Shown here: piece by piece, positions 8,456-57,093 of the stretch
Layout of the letters: each line of letters starts with the position of its first letter
Numbering within the stretch: position 1 is the stretch's first letter
NCBI RefSeq assembly: GCF_047663525.1
Contig: NC_092616.1
Location: forward strand, 6,260,501 to 6,324,500
Direction: 5' to 3'
Source of the DNA: Anas platyrhynchos
Taxonomy: Eukaryota > Chordata > Aves > Anseriformes > Anatidae
DNA: 64,000 bases
Notes under the pieces: generated by a model
The model's database searches: none
The model's input: the letters and a program-made list of their open reading frames with translations, nothing else
Told to the model about the DNA's origin: nothing
Position numbers and translations under genes: made by a program

Positions 8456-8751
8456 GCCCACCAGAAGGCCCACCACCAGGCCCACCAGAAGGCCCACCAG
8501 AAGGCCCACCACCAGGCCCACCAGAAGGCCCACCATCAGGCCCACCATCAGGCCCACCACCAGGCCCACCAGAAGGCCCACCACCAGGCCCACCAGAAGG
8601 CCCACCAGAAGGCCCACCACCAGGCCCACCAGAAGGCCCACCATCAGGCCCACCATCAGGCCCACCACCAGGCCCACCAGAAGGCCCACCACCAGGCCCA
8701 CCAGAAGGCCCACCACCAGGCCCACCACCAGGCCCACCACCGGGCCCACCA
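8456..8751. repeat. 12-bp minisatellite gcccaccagaag / gcccaccaccag / gcccaccatcag
   Basis: About 25 tandem 12-bp units in three variants, with a higher-order block repeated (8486-8600 resembles 8588-8700). Both strands stay open because the unit is a multiple of three, giving QKAHHQAH forward and VGLLVGLV reverse. It ends 10 bp before the SETD1A stop codon, so in the transcript it begins directly after the coding sequence. Confidence 0.92.
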
Positions 8752-8760
8752 CGCGGTGGC

Positions 8761-9000: not shown

Positions 9001-11552
<2,552 letters not shown>

Positions 11553-22735: not shown

Positions 22736-23801
22736 CTTGAACGATGGCAGCCTCAACGCCCCCCTCAGCCCCGCGCCCCCCCCCGGGCGCCAACCCCACC
22801 AGGGAGAGCAGCGCCGGGGGCTCCTTCGGCCTCGCCCTCTCCTTCTCCTCCTCCTTCTGCCTCGCCGCCGTCTGGAAGGGCTGGGGGGGCCCAAGTCCGG
22901 AACTATCCTCCAGACCCTCCCCAATAAATTTTGGGACCCGGGGCTCCGGGGAAGACCCTCCTTGACTTGCTCCTCTTTGCGCTCCCACCAGGCGTCGAGG
23001 CGCGGAAGGCGACGTTCTCCACCATCTTGCTTGAGGTCGCGCTGCATGGTGGCCTTCATCTCCTGCACCAGCTCCAGGACCCCCTCCACCGGCCCCCCCG
23101 CGGGGTAAAAAGGTCCAGGACCCCCCCCCGGGTAAAGGGTTTGAGGGGGGGTCCCCAAAATTCCACCTCCCCCCCCAAAATTGGTTTGGGGGTAAGGGGA
23201 AGGGGAGGAGGAGGAGGGGGAGGGGGAGGATGAGGAGGGTGAGGGAGGGGAGGGGGGGGTCGGTGCCCGGGGGGGCGTTCTTCGCCGTGGGGTAAGGGGG
23301 GGCGAAGGGGGGTAATGGGGAGGGGGGGGGCAAATGGAGAAGGGGCGGCGAATTTGGCCGAGCCCCCCCCGCGGCTGAGGGGCGGAGGCGGTTGAGGAGG
23401 GGGAGGAAGAGGAGGAGGAGGAGGAGGGGGGGGGCGGGGCTCCCCCGCCCCCCCAGCGCCCCCAAACGGCCCAGGAGTTCGTAAAGGGCCGGGGGGGGCC
23501 CCAGCCCCAAAATCCCCCAAAGGGCGGGGGCGAAATCGGGTCGGTGGCGCCCCCCCCTCCGGCCAGGGGAGGGCCACGGCCATGAGGGGCTGGGGGGGAA
23601 ATTTGGGGGGGGGAGGAGGGGGCTCGGGGGGGCGGGAGAGAAGGGGGAGGGGGTAAGGGGGGAGCCCCGGAGGGGGCGGGGGGGGTAGGGGCGAAACGGG
23701 GTTCCGGAGGACAGGGGGGTGGGGGGGGGCGGGGGGGGGGGGGGTCGTCGTCCTTCGTCCTCCGAAATTTCCATGTCCTCGCCCGAGGAGGGCTGAGAGG
23801 C
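22736..23801 (-). CDS. SETD1A: SETD1A large exon: MEIS motif, proline-rich region, LRLPSFK end
   Basis: The acceptor (gccccccag, 23802) is followed by ASQPSSGEDMEISEDEG, matching human SPCSSGDDMEISDDD. A proline-rich region follows, then LVQEMKATMQRDL, WWERKEEQVKEG, PFQTAARQKEEEKERA, KEPPALLSLV and finally LRGALRLPSFK before an AAG|GTATGG donor. Human has [50 protein letters not shown] and LRGALRLPSFK in this order. The pieces lie in different frames, so at least two or three indels in G/C runs interrupt the frame as given. Poly-proline stretches differ in length from mammals. Confidence 0.92.
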
Positions 23802-25460: not shown

Positions 25461-26146
25461 CCTCCTGCCCGTTGGCCCTTGGGCGACTCGGGGGGGCCGT
25501 CGCGCAGCGCCTCCCCCCGCAGACATCCTCGAAGCTGGCGGGGGGGGGGGGGGGCGGCGGCGTGCAGGGCCCGGGGCTCCCCTCTCCTCCTCCTCCGCAG
25601 GCTCCTAAAATTTGCGGGGGGGCTGCGGAAAGCCCCGGGGGGTCCCAGTGATTTCTTGACCCCCTCCCGAATTTGGGGGGCGCGCCACCCCCCCCTCGTC
25701 GTTGTCCTCCTCGGCGGCCAGGAAGGAAAATTTGGAGCGTTGCTCCTTCAGCAAGGCCTCGATTCGGGAGTCCAAACTGCTGTGCTGGGCGAGAAGGGGA
25801 CGCTTTCGGGGGTGGCCTCGGGGTCGGGGACCCCCCCCGGGGGGTAACGGGGGGGGTAGAGGGGGGGGGAGCAAAGGGGGGGGAGGAGGAGGAGGAGGCC
25901 GCTCCCAGAGGAAGGCGGTGGGGGGGAGCCAGGGGGGTCCCCGGGGGGGTCGGGGGCGAAGGAGTTCGGTGGGGGCAGGCGGCGGCGGCGAAGGTTTCGG
26001 CGGCCGGGGAGGAGCGCGATTCGGGTTCGGGGGGGGGGTGGTGGGGGGGGGGCGGCTTCGGGGGGGGGCGGGGAAGCCCCCGAATAAGGGTCGGGTTGGG
26101 GAGGTGGGGGCGTGGCGGGGATGGAGGAGGAGGAGGAGGAGGTGGT

Positions 26147-27949: not shown

Positions 27950-28109
27950 CGGCCCGTAGGCGCGTGCCGGTGGCGCAGGCGGTGCCGCGGGTGCCGTAGG
28001 GGGCGCCGGGGGGCTGGAAGGGGCCGCAGGCGGGGCTCGGGGGTCCCGTTGCCGGGGGTGCTCCCGGAGCCGAGGCGCTGTCGGCGGAGTGACGCCGCCG
28101 GGACTCGGG
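27950..28109 (-). CDS. SETD1A: SETD1A exon with ESRRR and STPGNGTPE motifs
   Basis: Between a ccccag acceptor and a GCCG|GTAACG donor the minus strand reads [14 protein letters not shown] and, at the end, [20 protein letters not shown]; the middle in another frame reads [10 protein letters not shown]. Human SETD1A has AESRRRSSSDTAAY, then VGTPGNGTPCSQD, then GQFTPQSSQGTPYTSRG, so all three pieces fit. Keeping all of them needs two compensating frame changes. Low-complexity S/T/P-rich linker. Confidence 0.88.
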
Positions 28110-29480: not shown

Positions 29481-29594
29481 ATCCCCCGGGGGCAGAGACG
29501 GGTGGGGGCCCCAACCCGGACCCTATAATTATGGGGGGGCACGGGACCCCAAAAGACCCCAAATCCCAAAAGTTTGGGGGGGGCCCCCCCTTAC

Positions 29595-29702
29595 CGCCTC
29601 CGCCTTGTCCCCCTGTCTCCGTCGCCTTGCCCCCGGTGGGGGACGGTTTGGGGCGTGTAGGACCCATTGACAATCAGCTCGTAGTACTTCATCCCTGCTG
29701 CC
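29595..29702 (-). CDS. SETD1A: SETD1A exon after the RRM: [18 protein letters not shown]
   Basis: This is the only full-length copy of an exon whose 5' part is repeated about 30 times upstream. It starts after a cttatag acceptor and reads [18 protein letters not shown], then TGGKATETGGQGGG up to a GGCG|GTAAGG donor. Human: [26 protein letters not shown]. It joins the RRM exon (ending IKG, phase 1). Two one-base faults are visible: the start reads GGCAGCAGGGATG where the upstream copies have GGCAGCAGCGGATG, and one C too many lies in the run after GTC (near 29655). Both break the frame as given, so either this copy has sequence errors or the full copy is decaying while truncated copies stay intact. 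Confidence 0.88.
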
Positions 29703-32700
29703 CTATAAGGGAATTGGAGGGTTTTGGGGTTAAAAACCCGAAAAAAGAACATTTGGGAGCTTACCGGAACAAAAACCCTAAAAAAATGAGCATTTAGGGT
29801 CAGAAAACCCTAAAAAAAGGAGCAATAGGACCCATTGACAATCAGCTCGTAGTACTTCATCCGCTGCTGCCCTATAAGGGAATTGGAGGGTTTTGGGGTT
29901 AAAAACCCGAAAAAAGGAGCATTTGGGAGCTTACGGGAACAAAAACCCTAAAAAAATGAGCATTTGGGGTCAGAAAACCCTAAAAAAGGAGCAATAGGAC
30001 CCGTTGACAATCAGCTCGTAGTACTTCATCCGCTGCTGCCCTATAAGGGAATTGTAGGGTTTTGGGGTTAAAAATCCTAAAAAAAGAACATTTCGGATGT
30101 TAAGGGCACAAAAACCCTAAAAAAAAATGAGCATTTAGGAGTTTAGGGTCAGAAAACCCTAAAAAAGGAGCATTTAGCCCTGTTAATGATGAGCTCGTAG
30201 TACTTTATCTGCTGCTGCCCTATAGGGGAATTGTAGGGTTTTGGGGTCAAAAACCTGAAAAAAGGAACATTTGGGAGCTTACGGGAACAAAAACCCTAAA
30301 AAAATGAGCATTTCTGATGTTAAAAGCGCAAAAATCCTATAAAAGGAGCAATAGGACCCGGTGACAATCAGCTCGTAGTACTTCATCCGCTGCTGCCCTA
30401 TAAGGGAATTGTAGGGTTTTGGGGTTTAAAACCCGAAAAAAGGAGCATTTGGGGAGCTTACGGGAACAAAAACCCTAAAAAAATGAGCATTTAGGGTCAG
30501 AAAACCCTAAAAAGGAGCATTTAGCCCTGTTAACGATGAGCTCGTAGTACTTCATCCGCTGCTGCCCTATAAGGGAATTGGAGGGTTTTGGGGTTAAAAA
30601 CCCGAAAAAAGGAGCATTTGGGAGCTTACCGGAACAAAACCCTAAAAAAATGAGCATTTCTGATGTTAAAAGTGCAAAAATCCTATAAAAGGAGCAATAG
30701 GACCCATTGACAATCAGCTCGTAGTACTTCATCCGCTGCTGCCCTATAAGGGAATTGTAGGGTTTTGGGGTCAAAAACCTGAAAAAAGGAACATTTGGGA
30801 GCTTACGGGAACAAAAACCCTAAAAAAATGAGCATTTAGGGTCAGAAAACCCTAAAAAAGGAGCATTTAGCCCTGTTAACGATGAGCTCGTAGTACTTCA
30901 TCCGCTGCTGCCCTATAAGGGAATTGGAGGGTTTTGGGGTTAAAAACCCGAAAAAAGGAGCATTTGGGAGCTTACCGGAACAAAAACCCTAAAAAAATGA
31001 GCATTTCTGATGTTAAAAGTGCAAAAATCCTATAAAAGGAGCAATAGGACCCATTGACAATCAGCTCGTAGTACTTCATCCGCTGCTGCCCTATAAGGGA
31101 ATTGTAGGGTTTTGGGGTCAAAACCTGAAAAAAGGAACATTTGGGAGCTTACGGGAACAAAAACCCTAAAAAAATGAGCATTTAGGGTCAGAAAACCCTA
31201 AAAAAGGAGCATTTAGCCCTGTTAACGATGAGCTCGTAGTACTTCATCCGCTGCTGCCCTATAAGGGAATTGGAGGGTTTTGGGGTTAAAAACCCGAAAA
31301 AAGGAGCATTTGGGAGCTTACCGGAACAAAAACCCTAAAAAAATGAGCATTTCTGATGTTAAAAGTGCAAAAATCCTATAAAAGGAGCAATAGGACCCAT
31401 TGACAATCAGCTCGTAGTACTTCATCCGCTGCTGCCCTATAAGGGAATTGTAGGGTTTTGGGGTCAAAAACCTGAAAAAAGGAACATTTGGGAGCTTACG
31501 GGAACAAAAACCCTAAAAAAATGAGCATTTAGGGTCAGAAAACCCTAAAAAAGGAGCATTTAGCCCTGTTAACGATGAGCTCGTAGTACTTCATCCGCTG
31601 CTGCCCTATAAGGGAATTGGAGGGTTTTGGGGTTAAAAACCCGAAAAAAGGAGCATTTGGGACCTTACCGGAACAAAAACCCTAAAAAAATGAGCATTTC
31701 TGATGTTAAAAGTGCAAAAATCCTATAAAAGGAGCAATAGGACCCATTGACAATCAGCTCGTAGTACTTCATCCGCTGCTGCCCTATAAGGGAATTGTAG
31801 GGTTTTGGGGTCAAAAACCTGAAAAAAGGAACATTTGGGAGCTTACGGGAACAAAAACCCTAAAAAAATGAGCATTTAGGGTCAGAAAACCCTAAAAAAG
31901 GAGCATTTAGCCCTGTTAACGATGAGCTCGTAGTACTTCATCCGCTGCTGCCCTATAAGGGAATTGGAGGGTTTTGGGGTTAAAAACCCGAAAAAAGGAG
32001 CATTTGGGAGCTTACCGGAACAAAAACCCTAAAAAAATGAGCATTTCTGATGTTAAAAGTGCAAAAATCCTATAAAAGGAGCAATAGGACCCATTGACAA
32101 TCAGCTCGTAGTACTTCATCCGCTGCTGCCCTATAAGGGAATTGTAGGGTTTTGGGGTCAAAAACCTGAAAAAAGGAACATTTGGGAGCTTACGGGAACA
32201 AAAACCCTAAAAAAATGAGCATTTAGGGTCAGAAAACCCTAAAAAAGGAGCATTTAGCCCTGTTAACGATGAGCTCGTAGTACTTCATCCGCTGCTGCCC
32301 TATAAGGGAATTGTAGGGTTTTGGGGTCAAAAACCCAAAAAAAGGAGCATTTGGGAGCTTACGGGAACAAAAACCCTAAAAAAATGAGCATTTCTGATGT
32401 TAAAAGCGCAAAAATCCTACAAAAGGAGCAGTAGGACCCGGTAACGATGAGGTTGTAGTACTTCATCCGCTGCTGCCCTATAAGGGAATTGTAGGGTTTT
32501 GGGGTTAAAAACCCAAAAAAAGGAGCATTTGGGAGCTTACGGGAACAAAAACCCTAAAAAAATGAGCATTTAGGGTCAGAAAACCCTAAAAAAGGAGCAA
32601 TAGGACCCGTTGACAATCAGCTCGTAGTACTTCATCCGCTGCTGCCCTATAAGGGAATTATAGGGTTTTGGGGTTAAAAACCCTAAAAAAGGAACATTTG

Positions 32701-34910
32701 GGAGCTTACAAGAACAAAAACACTAAGAAAATGAGCATTTCTGATGTTAAAAGCGCAAAAATCCTACAAAAGGAGCAATAGGACCCGGTGACGATGAGCT
32801 CGTAGTACTTCATCCGCTGCTGCCCTATAAGGGAATTATAGGGTTTTGGGGTTAAAAACCCCAAAAAAGGAACATTTGGGAACTTACCGGAACAAAAACC
32901 CTAAAAAAATGAGCATTTAGGGTCAGAAAACCCTAAAAAAGGAGCAATAGGCCCCGTTGACAATCAGCTCGTAGTACTTCATCCGCTGCTGCCCTATAAG
33001 GGAATTATAGGGTTTTGGGGTTAAAAACCCCCAAAAAGGAGCATTTGGGAGCTTACGGGAACAAAAACGCTAAAAAAATGAGCATTTAGGCTCAGAAAAC
33101 TCTAAAAAAAGAACATTTAGCCCTGTTAACAATGAGGTCGTAGTACTTCATCTGCTGCTGCCCTATAAGGGAATTGTAGGGTTTTGGGGTTAAAAACCCC
33201 AAAAAAGGAACATTTGGGAGCTTACGGGAACAAAAACCCTAAAAAAATGAGCATTTAGGCTCAGAAAACCCTAAAAAAGGAGCAATAGGACCCGTTGACA
33301 ATCAGCTCGTAGTACTTCATCCGCTGCTGCCCTATAAGGGAATTGTAGGGTTTTGGGGTTAAAAATCCTAAAAAAAGAACATTTCGGATGTTAAGGGCAC
33401 AAAAACCCTAAAAAAAATGAGCATTTAGGAGTTTAGGGTCAGAAAACCCTAAAAAAGGAGCAATAGGTGCCGTTAATGATGAGCTCGTAGTACTTCATCC
33501 GCTGCTGCCCTATAAGGGAATTATAGGGTTTTGGGGTTAAAAACCCGAAAAAAAGAACATTTCGGATGTTAAGGGCACAAAAACCCTAAAAAAAATGAGC
33601 ATTTAGGAGTTTAGGGTCAGAAAACCCTAAAAAAGGAGCATTTAGCCCTGTTAACGATGAGCTCGTAGTACTTTATCCGCTGCTGCCCTATAAGGGAATT
33701 GTAGGGTTTTGGGGTCAAAAACCTGAAAAAAGGAACATTTGGGAGCTTACGGGAACAAAAACCCTAAAAAACGAGCATTTGGGGATTTTAGGGTCGCAAA
33801 ACCCTAAAAAAGGAGCGTTTGGCCCATTGATTAGCTCAAAATACTTCATTTTCTGCTTCCCTGCTGTGAAAATTCGCAGGATTTTGGTTGTGCAAAACCC
33901 CAAAAAACAATCTTTGGGGTTTTTAGGGTGGCCAAACCCTAAAAAAGGAGAATTTGGGATTCTAGGCTTGGAAAACCCTAAAAAAGGAGCATCTGGCTCC
34001 ATTGACGATGAGCTCAAAATACTTCATTTTCTGCTGCCCTACTGCGAAAATTCACAGGATTTTGGTGTCGCGAAACCCCAAAAAACAATCTTTGGGTTTT
34101 TAGGATCACCAAACCCTAAAAAAGGAGAATTTGGGATTTTAGGATCGTAAAACCCTATAAAAGGAGCATTTGACCCCTTGATGACGAGCTCAAAATACTT
34201 CATTTTCTGGTGCCATACAGTGTAAATTTACAGGATTTTGGTTGCGCGAAACCCCAAAAAACGATCTTTGGGGATTTTAGAAGCACAAAACCCTAAAAAA
34301 TGATATTTTGGGGATTTTTGGGTCACAAAACACTACAAAAGTAGCCTTTGTCCCGTTGATGATGAGCTCAAAATCCTTCATTTTCTGTTGCCCTACTGTG
34401 AAAATTCATAGGATTTTGGTTGCGTGAAACCCCAAAAAATGATCTTTGGGGTTTTTAGGGTCACCAAACCCTAAAAAAAGAGAATTTGGGATTTTAGGGT
34501 CGTAAAACCCTAAAAAAGGAGCATTTGGCCCACTGACGATGAGCTCAGAACGCTTCATTTTCTGCTGCCTTACTGCAAAAATTCACAGGATTTTGGTTGC
34601 GCGAAACCCAAAAAATGAATTTTTGGGGATTTTAGAGGCACAAAACCCTAAAAAATTATATTTTGGGGATTTTTGGGTCACAAAACAATACAAAAATAGC
34701 ATTTGGCCTGTTGATGGTGAGCTCGGAACGCTTCATTTTCTGCTGTCATACAGTGTCAATTTATAGGATTTTGGTTGCGCGAAACCCCAAAAATGAATTT
34801 TTGTGGATTTTAGAGGCACAAAACCCTAAAAAATGATATTTTGGGGATTTTTGGGTCACAAAACACTACAAAAATAGCATTTAGCCTGTTGATGATGAGC
34901 TTGGAAAACT
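29660..34910. repeat. SETD1A: Exon-bearing tandem array: about 31 copies of a roughly 173-bp unit
   Basis: Copies centred on 'agctcgtagtacttcat' start near 29678, 29845, 30013, 30193, 30371, 30540, 30718, 30887, 31064, 31231, 31408, 31579, 31757, 31926, 32104, 32275, 32444, 32620, 32800, 32966, 33134, 33308, 33482 and 33660. Seven more, diverged (agctcaaaatacttcattttctg), follow at about 33833, 34008, 34188, 34366, 34540, 34720 and 34896. In the transcript each of the 24 good units carries a ctatag acceptor and the exon start encoding [13 protein letters not shown]. After that comes GGGTCCTATTGC (the true exon has GGGTCCTACACG) or GGGCTAAATGC. Between 30.4 and 32.3 kb two unit types alternate, giving a dimeric period of about 346 bp. 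Confidence 0.95.
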
Positions 34911-35049
34911 TCATCCTCTACTGCCCTACTGTGGAAATTCAGAGGATTTTGGTTGCGCGAAGCCCCAAAAATCCATTTTTTTGCTTTCTCCCCTCTTGAA
35001 ACCCCAAAAACGTCGTTTTTTGCCCCAAAAACGAGCCGCAGAAGCCGAC

Positions 35050-35320
35050 CTTTGATGTCGAGCTGCACGTGGATGACGTTGCCCATGACGGGGGTGTTGT
35101 GCAGGTGCTTGACGGTCTCCTTGGCGCCGCGGGTGCTGGCGAAGAGGACGCGGGCGAGGCCGAGGTGTTTTCGGGTTTTGGGGTGCAGGAGGATCTCCAC
35201 CTCCTCCACCTCCCCGTATTTTCGGCACATTTCGGCCAAAAACGCCTCGCGGACGTTGTCGTTCAGCCGGGCGAACGTCACCTCCTTCAGCGGGATTTGG
35301 CCCACGTAGAATTCGTCCAG
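35050..35320 (-). CDS. SETD1A: SETD1A RRM exon
   Basis: 90 intact codons encode the RNA-recognition motif: [91 protein letters not shown]. It is almost identical to human ([20 protein letters not shown]). The acceptor is gattttccag at 35321. The donor AAAG|GTCGGC is phase 1 and fits the GG start of the next exon (29595-29702). The RRM of SET1 proteins helps chromatin targeting. Clean frame, GC-rich codons. Confidence 0.98.
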
Positions 35321-37279: not shown

Positions 37280-38660
37280 AATCAGGGTGAACACCCCCCA
37301 AAAACCCCAAAACCACCCCAAAATTATCTTAGGGGGTTCGTCCGCCCCATAATGTTGACGTACGACCCCATAAATGCCCCCAAAATATCCCGATTGCCCA
37401 ATTTATAGGGTTTCCCATATAATTGAGCACCTATAGGATGGTTTTGGGGTCCCTGCTGGGCATTTATGGGGCACCCCAAAATACGAGGAGCCTCAAAACC
37501 CCAAATATTCATTTACAAACCCCACAAACACCCCAAAATATCTTCAATTATTGGGTTTCCTGGACTATAAAGCACTTTTAGGATAATTTTGGGGTCCCCA
37601 TTGGATATTTATAGGGCACCCCAAATTGTTAGAACCCTCAAAACCCCAAAATTTCATTTACAACCCCCTTAACCACCCCAAAATACCTTCAATTATGGGG
37701 TTTCCCAGACTATAGATCACTTTTAGGATTATTTTAGGGTCTTTTTGGGGTCCCTACCATGCATCTATGGGACACCCCAAATTCTGACAAGCTTGAAAAC
37801 CCCAAATTTTAACTTCCAAACCCCCTTAAACACCCCAAAATACATTTAATTATGGGTTTTCCTAGATGTTAAAGTAATTTTAGGATGATTTTGGGGTCCC
37901 TATTAGACATTTATGGGGCACCCCAAATTCTGACGAACCTCAAAACCCCAAATTTTAACTTCCAAACCCCTTAACCACCCCAAAAAAAAAACAAAACCCC
38001 CCACAAACACCCCAAAATACCTTCAATTATGGGGTTTCCCAGACTATAGATCACTTTTAGGATAATTTTAGGGTTTCTATTAGACATTTATGAGGCACCC
38101 CAAATTCTGACAAGCTTGAAAACCCCAAATTTTAACTTCCAAACCCCTTAAACACCCCAAAATACCTTTAATTATGGGGTTTCCCAAACTATAGATCACT
38201 TTTAGGATAATTTTAGGGTCCTTATTAGACATTTATGGGGCACCCCAAACCGTGAGGACCCTCAAAACCCCAAAATTTCATTTACAACCCCCTTAAACAC
38301 CCCAAAACCCCCCCAAGCCCCCCACAAACACCCCAAAATACCTTCAATTATAGGTTTTCCTAGATGTTAAAGCACTTTTAGGATGATTTTGGGGTCCCCG
38401 TTGGATATTTATAGGGCACCCCAAACCGTGAGGAGCCTCAAAACCCCAAATTTTAACTTCCAAACCCCTTAAACACCCCAAAATACCTTTAATTATGGGG
38501 TTTCCCAGACTATAGATCACTTTTAGGATAATTTTAGGGTCCTTATTAGACAGTTATGGGGCACCCCAAACTGTGAGGACCCTCAAAACCCCAAAATTTC
38601 ATTTACAACCCCCTTAAACACCCCAAAACCCCCCCAAAAAGCCCACAACTCCCTTAACAT
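37280..38660. repeat. SETD1A intron: about 150-170-bp repeat, 8 copies
   Basis: Units recur near 37400, 37540, 37690, 37845, 38020, 38165, 38340 and 38485, each with 'caattatggggtttccc(a)gactatagatcacttttagga', 'attttagggtcc(t/c)', 'catttatggggcacccc' and 'caaaaccccaaattttaacttcc'. On the minus strand most units place CTATAG about 23 nt before an AAG|GTATTT, which looks like a tiny exon. Not exon-derived as far as I can see. Confidence 0.9.
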
Positions 38661-52220: not shown

Positions 52221-52225
52221 CTCAC

Positions 52226-52432
52226 CTGCCAGGTTGAGCTCGGCCAGGCAGTGGCGCAGCCCCCCCAGGGCCCCCAGGGCGCCGTCCCCGAGCCGGGCAC
52301 AGTGGCTGAGGTCGAGGGAGGCGAGCTGGGGCGCGTGGCGGGCCACCAGGCGCAGGGACACCTCCGTCACCTCCAGCCCCGCCAGGCGCAGCTCCACCAG
52401 GTTGGGGAGGCGCCCGCGGGGCTCGGGGGGGC
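52226..52432 (-). CDS. FBXL19: FBXL19 penultimate exon: leucine-rich repeats
   Basis: Reads [69 protein letters not shown]. Human: [20 protein letters not shown]-type region, then [21 protein letters not shown] and LVHLNLAG. The acceptor is cccccag and the donor GGCAG|GTGAGG. This is the only complete copy: its 5' 34 nt are repeated about 14 times upstream (52.5-55.0 kb) and its 3' 87 nt three times downstream (49.3-51.4 kb). Intact frame with phase 1 at both ends. Confidence 0.96.
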
Positions 52433-52435
52433 CTG

Positions 52436-55060
52436 GGGGGGGAGAAAAAGGTTAGGGAAACCCAAAAACCCCCATTTTTACCCCAAAAATCCCATATTGT
52501 GCCCCAAAACGCACCCATTGTACCCAAAACCCATGGGTGTCTCCCCATGACCCCAATGACTCCCGTGGCCCCCCCAGGTTGGGGAGGTGCCCATGAGACT
52601 CGGGGGGGGAAGAAAAAGGTCAGGGGACCCCAAAAACCCCGCTTTTTACCCCAAAAATCCAATATCGTGGCCAAAAAATCCCATATTGTGCCCCAAAATC
52701 TCATATTGTCCCCAAAAATACCACTACTCTACCCAAAACCCATCCGTGTTAGCCCCCGTGGTTCCCCCCCCCAGGTTGGGGAGGCGCCCGCGGGGCTCGG
52801 GGGGGCCTGGGGGGGGAGAAGAAGGTCAGGGAAACCCAAAAACCCCCATTTTTACCCCAAAAATCCCCCTTTGTGCCCCAAAAATCCTATATTGTGCCCC
52901 AAAATGCGCCCATTGTACCCATTGTCTCCCCATGACCCCTACGACTCCCGTGGCCCCCCCCAGGTTGGGGAGGCGCCCGCGGGGCTCGGGGGGGCCTGGG
53001 GGGGGAGAAGAAGGTCAGGAGATCCCAAAAACCCCGCTTTTTACCCCAAAAATCCCATATTGTGACAAAAAATACGATATCGTCCCCAAAAACGCCACTA
53101 CTCTACCCAAAAAGTCACCCATTGTCGTCCCCCCCCCCCGCCAGGTTGGGGAGGCGCCCGCGGGGCTCGGGGGGGCCTGGGGGGGGGAGAAGAAGGTCAG
53201 GAAATCCCAAAAAGCCCACTTTTTACCCCAAAAATCCCATCTTGTGGCCAAAAAATCTGATATCGTCCCTAAAAACCCCACCGTTGTACCCAAAACCCAT
53301 CTGTGTCACCCAGGTTGGGGAGGCGCCCGCGGGGCTCGGGGGGGCCTGGGGGGGGAGAAGAAGGTCAGGGAAACCCAAAAACCCCCATTTTTACCCCAAA
53401 AATCCCCATTGTTACCAAAAAATCCCATTTTGTCCCCAAAAACCCCACCAAAAGTCATCCATGTTAGCCCCATGTCCCCCCATTTGTCCCCCCCATCAGG
53501 TTGGGGAGGCGCCCGCGGGGCTCGGGGGGGCCTGGGGGGGGGAGAAGAAGGTCAGGGAAACCCAAAAACCCCCATTTTTACCCCAAAAATCCCATCTTTT
53601 GGCCAAAAAATCTGATATCGTCCCTAAAAACCCCACCGTTGTACCCAAAACCCATCTGTGTCACCCAGGTTGGGGAGGTGCCCGCGGGGCTCGGGGGGGC
53701 CTGGGGGGGGGAGAAGAAGGTCAGGGAAACCCAAAAACCCCGCTTTTTACCCCAAAAATCCCATATTGTTCCCCCAAATCCCTAAAAACCCCACTATTGT
53801 ACCCAAAACCCATCCATGTCCCCCCATGACCCCAATGACTCCCGTGGTCCCCCCCAGGTTGGGGAGGCGCCCGCGGGGCTCGGGGGGGCCTGGGGGGGGC
53901 GAAGAAGGTCAGGAAATCCCAAAAAACCCGCTTTTTACCCCAAAAATCCCATATTGTGACAAAAACTACGATATCGTCCCCAAAAACGCCACTACTCTAC
54001 CCAAAACCCATCCATGTTAGCCCCCCGTGGTTCCCCCCCCCAGGTTCGGGAGGCGCCCGCGGGGCTCGGGGGGGCCTGGGGGGGGGGAGAAGAAGGTCAG
54101 GGAAACCCAAAAACCCCGCTTTTTACCCCAAAAATCCCATCTTGTGGCCAAAAAATCTGATATCGTCCCTAAAAACCCCACCGTTGTACCCAAAACCCAT
54201 TTGTGTCACCCAGGTTGGGGAGGCGCCCGCGGGGCTCGGGGGGGCCTGGGGCGGAGAAGAAGGTTAGGGAAACCCAAAAAGCCCCATTTTTACCCCAAAA
54301 ATCCCCATTGTTACCAAAAAATCCCATTTTGTCCCCAAAAACCCCACCAAAAGTCATCCATGTTAGCCTCATGTCCCCCCATTTGTCCCCCCCCATCAGG
54401 TTGGGGAGGCGCCCGCGGGGCTCGGGGGGGCCTGGGGGGGGAGAAAAAGGTTAGGGAAACCCAAAAACCCCGCTTTTTACCCCAAAATCCCCCATTGTTA
54501 CCAAAAAATCCAATATCATCCCCAAATACGCCACTACTCTACCCAAAAAGTCACCCATTGTCCCCGACCCCCCCCAGGTTGGGGAGGCGCCCGCAGGGCT
54601 CGGCGGGGGCCTGGGGGGGGGAGAAAGAGGTTAGGGAAACCCAAAAACCCCCATTTTTACCCCAAAAATCCCATATTGTCCCTAAAACCCTGCATTGTTA
54701 CCAAAAAACCCTGTAATGTCCCCAAAAAGCCACCCGTTGTCCCCCCATTTGTCCCCCCCCCCCAGGTTGGGGAGGCGCCCGCGGGGCTCGGGGGTCCTGG
54801 GGGGGGGAGAAGAAGGTCAGGGAAACCCAAAAACCCCGCTTTTTACCCCAAAAATCCCCATTGTTACCAAAAAATCCCATTTTGTCCCCAAAAACCCCAC
54901 CAAAAGTCAACCGTGTTAGCCCCATGTCCCGTCCCCCCACCAGGTTGGGGAGGCGCCCGCGGGGCTCGGGGGGGCCTGGGGGGGGGAGAAGAAGGTCAGG
55001 AGATCCCAAAAACCCCCATTTTTACCCCAAAAATCCCATATTGTGGCCAAACCCCCCCCA
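52436..55060. repeat. FBXL19: Exon-bearing array: about 14 copies of the acceptor end of the FBXL19 penultimate exon
   Basis: Units of about 165-195 bp. Extra copies of 'ggttggggaggcgcccgcgg' start near 52576, 52773, 52963, 53142, 53308, 53497, 53667, 53857, 54043, 54210, 54399, 54577, 54766 and 54942; the first is diverged. On minus each has a ccccccag acceptor followed by about 34 nt encoding [11 protein letters not shown], then leaves the exon sequence. The rest of the unit is gaagaaggtcagg, aaacccaaaaacccc and accccaaaaatccca. Confidence 0.94.
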
Positions 55061-56943
55061 AATCCCCCAAAATCCCCAAAATTCCCCCAAATTCCCGTAC
55101 CTCTGGCGTTGGGCAGCAGCTCTCGGAGCTGGGCGTCGCGGAGCATCCTCCAAACCCCCCAAATCCCCCTAAAATCCCCCTAAAATCCCCCTAAAACCCC
55201 CCAAAACCCCCCCCAAATCCCCCAAAATTGCCCAAATTCCCCCAAAATTCCCCAAAATGCCCGTACCTCTGGCGTCGGGCAGCAGCTCTCGGAGCTGGGC
55301 GTCGCGGAGCATCCCCCAAACCCCAAAATCCCCCCAAATCCCCCCAAATCCCCCAGAATCCCCTAAAATCCCCCTAAAACCCCCCAAAATCCCCCAAATT
55401 CCCCCAAAACCTCCCAAAATCCCCCAAATTTCCCCAAAATCCCCATACCTCTGGCGTCGGGCAGCAGCTCTCGGAGCTGGGCGTCGCGGAGCATCCTCCA
55501 AACCCCAAAATCCCCCCAAATCCCCCCAAAAATCCCACCAAAACTCCCCAAAATCCCCCCAAAACCTCCCCAAATTGCCCAAAATCCCCAAAATTCCCCC
55601 AAAATGCCCGTACCTCTGGCGTCGGGCAGCAGCTCTCGGAGCTGGGCGTCGCGGAGCATCCCCCATTTCCCCCCAATCCCCCTAAAATCCCCCTAAAATC
55701 CCCCAGAATCCCCCAAAACCTCCCCAAACCCCCCCAAATTCCCCCAAAATCTCCCAAAATCCCCCAAATTCCCCCAAAATGCCCGTACCTCTGGCGTCGG
55801 GCAGCAGCTCTCGGAGCTGGGCGTCGCGGAGCATCCCCCAATCCCCCCAAATCCCCCTAAAATCCCCCAAAATCTCCCAAAAACCCCCCAGAATCCCCCA
55901 AAATCTCCCAAAATCCCCCAAAATTCCCCCAAAATGCCCGTACCTCTGGCGTCTGGCAGCAGCTCCCGGAGCTGGGCGTCGCGGAGCATCCCCCATTCCC
56001 CCCAAATCCCCCCCAAATCCCCCAAAATCCCCCTAAAACCCCCCAAACCCCCCCCCAAATCCCCCAAAATTGCCAAATTTCCCCAAAATCCCCCAAAATG
56101 CCCGTACCTCTGGCGTCGGGCAGCAGCTCCCGGAGCTGGGCGTCGCGGAGCATCCCCCATTCCCCCCAAATCCCCCCAAATGCCCCCCAAATCCCCCCCA
56201 AAACCCCCCAAAACCCCCAAAATTCCCCAAAATCCCCCAAAATCCCCCAAAATTCCCGTACCTCTGGCGTCGGGCAGCAGCTCTCGGAGCTGGGCGTCGC
56301 GGAGCATCCCCCATTCCCCCCAAATCCCCCTTAAATTCCCCCAATACCCCTCCAAAACCCCCCAAAACCTCCCAAAATCCCCAAAATTCCCCCAAAATTC
56401 CCCAAAATCCCCCCCAAAAAAACCAAAATCCCCGTACCTCTGCTGTCGGGCAGCAGCTCTCAGAGCTGGGCGTCGCGGAGCATCCTCCAAACCCCAAAAT
56501 CCCCCCAAATGCCCCCCAAATCCCCCCCAAAACTCCCCAAAATCCCCCCAAAACCTCCCCAAATTGCCCAAAATCCCCAAAATTCCCCCAAAATGCCCGT
56601 ACCTCTGGCGTCGGGCAGCAGCTCTCGGAGCTGGGCGTCGCGGAGCATCCCCCATTCCCCCCAAATCCCCCCAAAACCCCCCCAAATCCCCCAGAATCCC
56701 CCAAAATCTCCCAAAAACCCCCCAAAATCCCCCAAAATCTCCCAAAATCCCCCAAAATTCCCCCAAAATGCCCGTACCTCTGGCGTCGGGCAGCAGCTCT
56801 CGGAGCTGGGCGTCGCGGAGCATCCCCCATTTCCCCCCAATCCGCCTAAAATCCCCCTAAAATCCCCCTAAAACCCCCCAAAACCCCCCGAAAACCCCCA
56901 AAATTGCCCAAATTCCCCCAAAATTCCCCCAAAATGCCCGTAC
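55060..56943. repeat. FBXL19: Exon-bearing array: about 11 copies of the donor end of an FBXL19 exon
   Basis: Units of about 150-180 bp. Copies begin near 55095, 55261, 55444, 55608, 55783, 55938, 56102, 56256, 56431, 56598 and 56772, then the true exon at 56944. On minus each encodes [14 protein letters not shown] (about 44 nt) and ends at GCCAGAG|GTACGG. The 5' breakpoint is always after the GCTCCGCGAC start. No AG acceptor precedes the copied piece, so these are extra donors rather than whole exons. Spacers are ccccaaaatccccc. Confidence 0.95.
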
Positions 56944-57093
56944 CTCTGGCGTCGGGCAGCAGCTCTCGGAGCTGGGCGTCGCGGAGCTCAGGCACCCAGC
57001 GCAGGTCCAGCAGCCGCAGCGACGCCAACGAGGCCGTGCCCAGCGCCGACACCGCGCACCACGAGCAGCCGCTCAGCACCAGCTCCCGCAGCC
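56944..57093 (-). CDS. FBXL19: FBXL19 exon: leucine-rich repeats
   Basis: Reads [50 protein letters not shown]. Human: [47 protein letters not shown]. The acceptor is ccccccag and the donor CAGAG|GTACGG, phase 1, fitting both neighbours. Intact frame. The last 44 nt and the donor are the template of the 55.1-56.9 kb array. Confidence 0.97.

Follow-up and report, generated by a model that had tools for sequence, protein, structure and literature searches.

A tandem array of exon-start copies in a SETD1A intron of Anas platyrhynchos, very probably a case of exon stuttering

The gene for the histone methyltransferase SETD1A lies on the minus strand of a 64,000-nucleotide stretch of the Anas platyrhynchos genome (assembly GCF_047663525.1, contig NC_092616.1, positions 6,260,501 to 6,324,500), which is referred to here as the window. 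The intron between the RRM exon of this gene and the next coding exon was found to contain 31 tandem copies of the start of that next exon, the terminal copy being the exon itself. The array is real, and in all probability it is a case of exon stuttering, a phenomenon recently described in chicken. It is a strong example of this phenomenon and not a new kind of array.

All positions are those of the window, and the exons and array features are on the minus strand. The RRM exon (35050 to 35320; Pfam RRM_1, 8.1e-09; match to the solved SETD1A chain 8ily) ends in a weak donor, AAG/GTCGGC, from 35049. The intron that follows (29703 to 35049) is 5347 bp long, has a GC content of 41%, and consists nearly entirely of the array. 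The first exon bases of the 31 copies run from 34925 to 29702 at a spacing of 168 to 179 bp, mainly 169 or 178, which bears out the array of SETD1A exon starts, with a unit of about 173 bp, that was reported in a preliminary description of this DNA. Copies 1 to 7 (33689 to 34960) form a diverged group whose consensus is GQQKMKYFELIING. Copies 8 to 30 (29704 to 33735), which comprise a branch-point-like element, an acceptor, and at most the first 46 nt of the exon, are well preserved, and their translation is mostly the 13-residue peptide of the true exon start. Copy 31 is the true exon (29595 to 29702), leaving 30 decoys. The preliminary description had distinguished 24 well-preserved and 7 diverged decoys; these classes are right, but its 24 include the true exon, and the preserved decoys number 23. 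It had also confined the continuation into SYTPQTVP and a donor to the last copy, and this continuation is indeed seen in copy 31 only, with the donor GCG/GTAAGG at 29594.

When the exon was compared with the intron using blastn-short, 12 of the 34 hits reached 42.1 bits, while the best hit over 50 base-shuffled introns was 28.2 bits. A search of the whole genome (1.26 Gb, 42 contigs) with this DNA placed all 25 matches listed at the SETD1A locus, a count to be read as at least 25.

The gene was identified by comparison with solved structures. The RRM together with the first codons of the next exon matched the SETD1A chain 8ily with 210 bits and the SETD1B chain 8ilz with 164 bits, which, with the 31 copies, upholds the earlier statement that the amplified exon is the one following the RRM in SETD1A. 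The first 22 codons of the terminal exon fall within the solved SETD1A RRM construct. RRM_1, N-SET, and SET were recognized by Pfam in single or joined exon translations, all on the same strand, one of the two N-SET exon pieces scoring 27.6 bits, just under the cut-off of 28.3. The SET domain reads GL-AMGP at 11354 to 11468 (minus strand) and is one residue short there relative to a solved yeast relative and to the human protein.

The 5' and 3' edges of 12 SETD1A exons were each searched against the window. Among the best four hits per edge, with several exon limits approximate, strong near copies were found for this 5' edge alone (best E value, 9e-14). The next-best edge reached 9e-5 through C-rich matches, and no other exon qualified on this basis as a source of copies. 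In the paralogue SETD1B, on contig C16, the corresponding exon start occurs once in a 9.9-kb stretch, and tandem repeats cover 0.7% of that stretch versus 80% of the 64-kb window.

The unit is composed of about 120 to 130 nt of intron with a branch-point-like yTnAy element, then the acceptor, and then up to 46 nt of exon. Its intronic part is built from related sub-repeats, as 0 of 1000 shuffles reached the observed score in each of three within-unit comparisons. Of the 24 preserved copies, the true exon included, 23 have the yTnAy element 20 to 40 nt ahead of the AG; among the 23 preserved decoys, 22 have it and copy 27 does not. All 46 exon nucleotides are exact, the terminal deletion aside, in 6 of the 30 decoys. 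The acceptor had previously been given as ctatag in every unit. This proved incorrect: of the 24 preserved copies (8 to 31), 23 have CCTTATAG and only copy 28 has CCCTATAG (CTATAG), and the AG has been lost from copies 2, 3, and 5. The other 28 of the 31 copies, including 4 of the 7 diverged ones, retain the AG at this position. The idea of decoy acceptors holds to this extent, with candidates of exon-start type in 27 of the 30 decoys (23 near-identical and 4 diverged) and not in all copies.

Over the last 30 nt of the intron, six of the 23 preserved decoys are identical to the true copy and the other 17 differ from it by one to three mismatches; the seven diverged copies have 13 to 17 mismatches. 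Since the preserved decoys are near-identical in this region, it is hard to see how acceptor strength could distinguish the true copy from them. The intron as a whole, array copies included, contains 87 AG sites preceded by a pyrimidine tract according to a simple rule, compared with a mean of 30 and a maximum of 43 in 200 base shuffles, which do not retain T runs.

Two main types of unit alternate along the array. Type A (CTCATCGTTAACAGG) accounts for 8 of the 23 preserved decoys and type B (CTGATTGTCAA(T/C)GGGTCC) for 9, the remaining 6 being of other types. Apart from the deletion in the true exon, type B is the sequence of the true exon. Copies 16 to 25 form five 347-bp A+B dimers (30567 to 32299), any two of which show at most two differences. 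This indicates that the most recent expansion probably took place mid-array and by dimers.

Exon stuttering is the spread of copies of a lateral exon part, together with its splice site, through the adjacent intron, as described for chicken dot chromosomes by Hron et al. (2026; PMC12954441, doi 10.1093/gbe/evag038), so this type of array is not undescribed, as had been thought in the preliminary description. The main text of that work reports 115 verified chicken genes (236 introns, 190 on dot chromosomes), with 1 to 44 copies, exon parts of 20 to 187 bp, and spans of 112 to 23,555 bp. It also reports that length differs between chickens in 183 of 192 such introns, names potential alternatively spliced transcripts for stuttered introns, and mentions local repeat expansions for other birds. 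In the same main text there is no mention of RNA-seq, no splicing test among the occurrences of "splic", and no occurrence of SETD1A or FBXL19. No report of stuttering in SETD1A was found in that text or in literature searches covering titles and the starts of abstracts.

The SETD1A array agrees with the published description in several respects. The published screen takes blastn-short hits between exon and intron that are 20 nt or longer, score no less than 42.1 bits, and exceed those of shuffled introns (PMC12954441, main text), and the 12 hits given above lie in this range. The 30 extra copies, the exon part of at most 46 nt, and the span of about 5.2 kb are inside the ranges reported there. 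The copied part begins at the exon border and spans it, with the AG present in 27 of 30 decoys, and the ohnologue SETD1B is free of additional copies in the stretch analyzed on C16. In both systems an exon border and its splice site are repeated directly and in tandem within an adjacent, repeat-filled intron, the ohnologue is without copies, and sizes and copy numbers fall in the same range; a small chromosome is probably a shared feature as well. The dimers, the donor-bearing decoys, and the synonymous A and B unit types are features of the SETD1A array described here. Intron 18 of chicken PHF8 has two repeat clusters in one intron, one of them from the exon border (PMC12954441, main text), whereas the SETD1A intron has one cluster, and a neighboring gene has exon-derived clusters at both borders. 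The array also resembles the pseudo-exons known from disease and the poison exons in that intronic acceptor-donor pairs could give frameshifting exons; it differs from them in consisting of many tandem copies of putative exons.

The neighboring gene, also on the minus strand, encodes a leucine-rich repeat protein of the KDM2/FBXL19 type. Its closest solved chains are KDM2A (106 bits) and KDM2B (103 bits), an NCBIfam scan of the gene gave no match, and from synteny we take it to be FBXL19. One of its introns contains copies derived from both exon borders: 12 copies (11 extra) of the 3' end of the preceding exon with its donor at 55101 to 56990, reading gtacgg in 11 and gtatgg in 1, and 15 copies (14 extra) of the acceptor with the 5' end of the next exon at 52226 to 54997. 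The AG is retained in 14 of these 15 copies and lost in the copy at 52609. The last acceptor-side copy (52432) extends into the exon, with a 14-residue peptide and the donor CAG/GTGAGG at 52225, and the two exons examined read open. The SETD1A array therefore does not stand alone.

These observations (the copies and their order, the dimers, the absence of an array from the paralogue, and the second case in the window) suggest a mechanism in which a minisatellite unit of about 173 bp, straddling the intron-exon boundary on a repeat-rich avian microchromosome, would have been copied many times over into the intron through slippage, unequal exchange, or gene conversion. Single units would have been added at first, and 347-bp dimers more recently. 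The repeat-rich setting is apparent on C30, the contig of the window (6.8 Mb), where tandem repeats cover 45 to 75% of five 10-kb stretches at 6.00 to 6.33 Mb, 0.3% at 5 Mb, 1.6% at 3 Mb, and 100% at 1 Mb; two control stretches on C16 gave 0.7% and 2.5%. Complex tandem families were present in the five C30 loci at 6.00 to 6.33 Mb among nine loci of about 10 kb, and none were found in the other four (two on C16 and C30 at 3 and 5 Mb). Such families occur in C30 loci L013 (3777 to 5045) and L014 (3749 to 4633 and 5509 to 7097), with up to 21 to 23 near copies of a 32-mer. Another lies at 37465 to 38585 of the window, in the intron that separates the first two coding exons recognized in SETD1A, with up to seven near copies of a 32-mer and no strong exon-edge match among the best four hits per edge. 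Just past the SETD1A stop codon is an array of a 12-bp unit, GCCCACCACCAG, with about 25 copies and 88% matches (8456 to 8752).

With near-identical acceptors in the preserved decoys, the choice of the true exon must rest on what comes after the acceptor. Beyond nucleotide 47, the GC content is 0.75 in the true exon and 0.28 to 0.41 in the 30 decoys, and only the true copy combines a GC-rich tail with a genuine donor 108 nt on. This points to exon definition as the likely selector, and we consider it somewhat more probable than its alternatives that the true exon is found in this way. Seven decoys carry donor-like CCG/GTAAG(C/G/T) sites (minus strand) 106 to 115 nt past their acceptors (at 32887, 32015, 31668, 31321, 30975, 30629, and 29764) and are thus potential complete pseudo-exons. 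Four of them (decoys 17, 19, 21, and 23) have an open frame over 115 nt, a length of 1 mod 3 that would shift the frame; decoy 25 is open over 114 nt, and decoys 12 and 30 contain in-frame stops. The candidate decoys are probably mostly silent, and low-level mis-splicing into frameshifting or stop-bearing pseudo-exons would be cleared by nonsense-mediated decay.

Several points weigh against this account. Variation in length between individuals is a main feature of stuttering, and the data presented here come from one assembly. The class of the C30 chromosome is an inferred one. In the assembled sequence the frame of the terminal exon is interrupted, unlike the intact coding regions stated in the main text of the chicken work (PMC12954441). 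Finally, on a weight matrix the seven decoy donors score 5.0 to 6.4, compared with 4.3 for the donor of the true exon and 0.4 for that of the RRM exon. This speaks against a simple rule of donor strength, and exon definition alone does not clearly exclude the decoys.

A rival possibility is that the decoys are functional, acting as competing acceptors and, where complete, as poison exons that set SETD1A output, with array length tuning dosage. The seven potential pseudo-exons, four of them frameshifting and two with stops, would suit such a role, as would the weak RRM donor, which is the second lowest of the 10 SETD1A donors scored on the same matrix, the lowest belonging to an exon with an uncertain end. 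Moreover, the preserved copies agree best over the last 14 nt of the intron (97.2% versus 91.0% for the rest). However, the exon part of the preserved decoys is kept no better than the remainder of the unit (91.4% versus 91.0%), and the two are also alike between the A and B types (88.0% versus 89.5%), so that the decoys are not generally under coding selection. Private changes in the exon part are mostly nonsynonymous, and many introns of chicken dot chromosomes hold such arrays without known function (PMC12954441, main text). A functional role of the decoys is considered unlikely.

The state of the terminal exon raises the further possibility that SETD1A is decaying, the exon being truly broken and either left out of the transcript or entered at an inner CAG. 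One C is missing from copy 31 and from no other copy (CAGCAGCGG has become CAGCAGGG), and the RRM exon (phase 1) joined to its acceptor reads GQQG-stop, with TGA as the fifth codon. An extra C further on in copy 31 (GTCCCCCACC), judged against the human TVPTGGK, brings the frame back. Canonical splicing into this exon as assembled meets two stops, while skipping it or using an inner CAG at +5 or +8 gives a frame that is open to the end of the next exon in the assembly. The ESRRR frame in which that next exon should begin is reached by none of the three routes, and the conserved peptide of that exon itself shifts frame, which makes consensus errors as likely an explanation as decay. The RRM and SET parts are strongly conserved and the first 22 codons of the terminal exon belong to the solved RRM construct, which also argue against decay. 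We regard decay as improbable, and our first guess is that the frame breaks are residual consensus errors.

One 115-nt decoy placed between the RRM exon and copy 31 was considered as a way around the break; it restores an 18-residue frame that stays open, yet it misses the ESRRR frame of the next exon. Conserved peptide also jumps frames at small indels, real or consensus errors as judged against the human protein, in SETD1A exons at 22745 to 23250, 25461 to 25850, and 27952 to 28109 (minus strand), for example, in VQEMK...WWERKEE and MQRDLK...MVENVAF...DAWWERKEE.

That the array or its copy number results from misassembly is very improbable and is not supported: the -1 and +1 nt in the terminal exon, the small frame breaks that further SETD1A exons show against the human protein, and the single-base indels that separate otherwise near-identical units would fit it, but the two main unit lengths, the diverged distal group, and the homogenized dimer block are unlike the misjoining of one exon, the second gene behaves likewise with its two examined exons open, and for the published PHF8 case raw nanopore reads confirmed the repeat structure in general terms (PMC12954441, main text).

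Elsewhere in the genome, contig C42 and three other places encode a cytochrome b that, with TGA read as stop, is 88 to 89% identical to the chicken sequence over the 291 residues given, which fits a bird that is probably not chicken. The cytochrome b-like whole-query copies off contig C42 lie at C40:3511943-3524468 and C34:3374769-3375641, the two on C40 being about 12 kb apart in opposite orientation, and may be mitochondrial insertions or a misjoin. A Pfam scan of four further open frames of the window gave no match.

The A and B types of the stuttered exon start offer a possible view of its history. Between their consensus sequences, four changes are found over the 13 codons, all four synonymous (P 0.002 to 0.008); with codon 14 (G to R) included, four of five are synonymous (P 0.008 to 0.03). 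Compared with the private changes of the copies (one synonymous and six nonsynonymous, by hand count), the difference gives a Fisher P of 0.07. This is suggestive of the A and B units being exon "fossils" that may have been captured at two times from an exon under selection. A bolder proposal, which joins this fossil record of the exon to a splicing variable number tandem repeat whose decoys are used enough for SETD1A output to follow the number of units, appears doubtful.

The array extends exon stuttering to the gene of a COMPASS histone methyltransferase, with 23 near-identical and 4 diverged candidate decoy acceptors in one intron. The value of the case lies in the question that it poses for splicing and in a possible record of exon history. 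It is a natural experiment on how splicing picks among near-identical acceptors, and its copies may preserve earlier states of the exon. If it is true that array length alters SETD1A splicing, the instability of dot chromosomes would be linked to gene dosage and to gene loss in birds.

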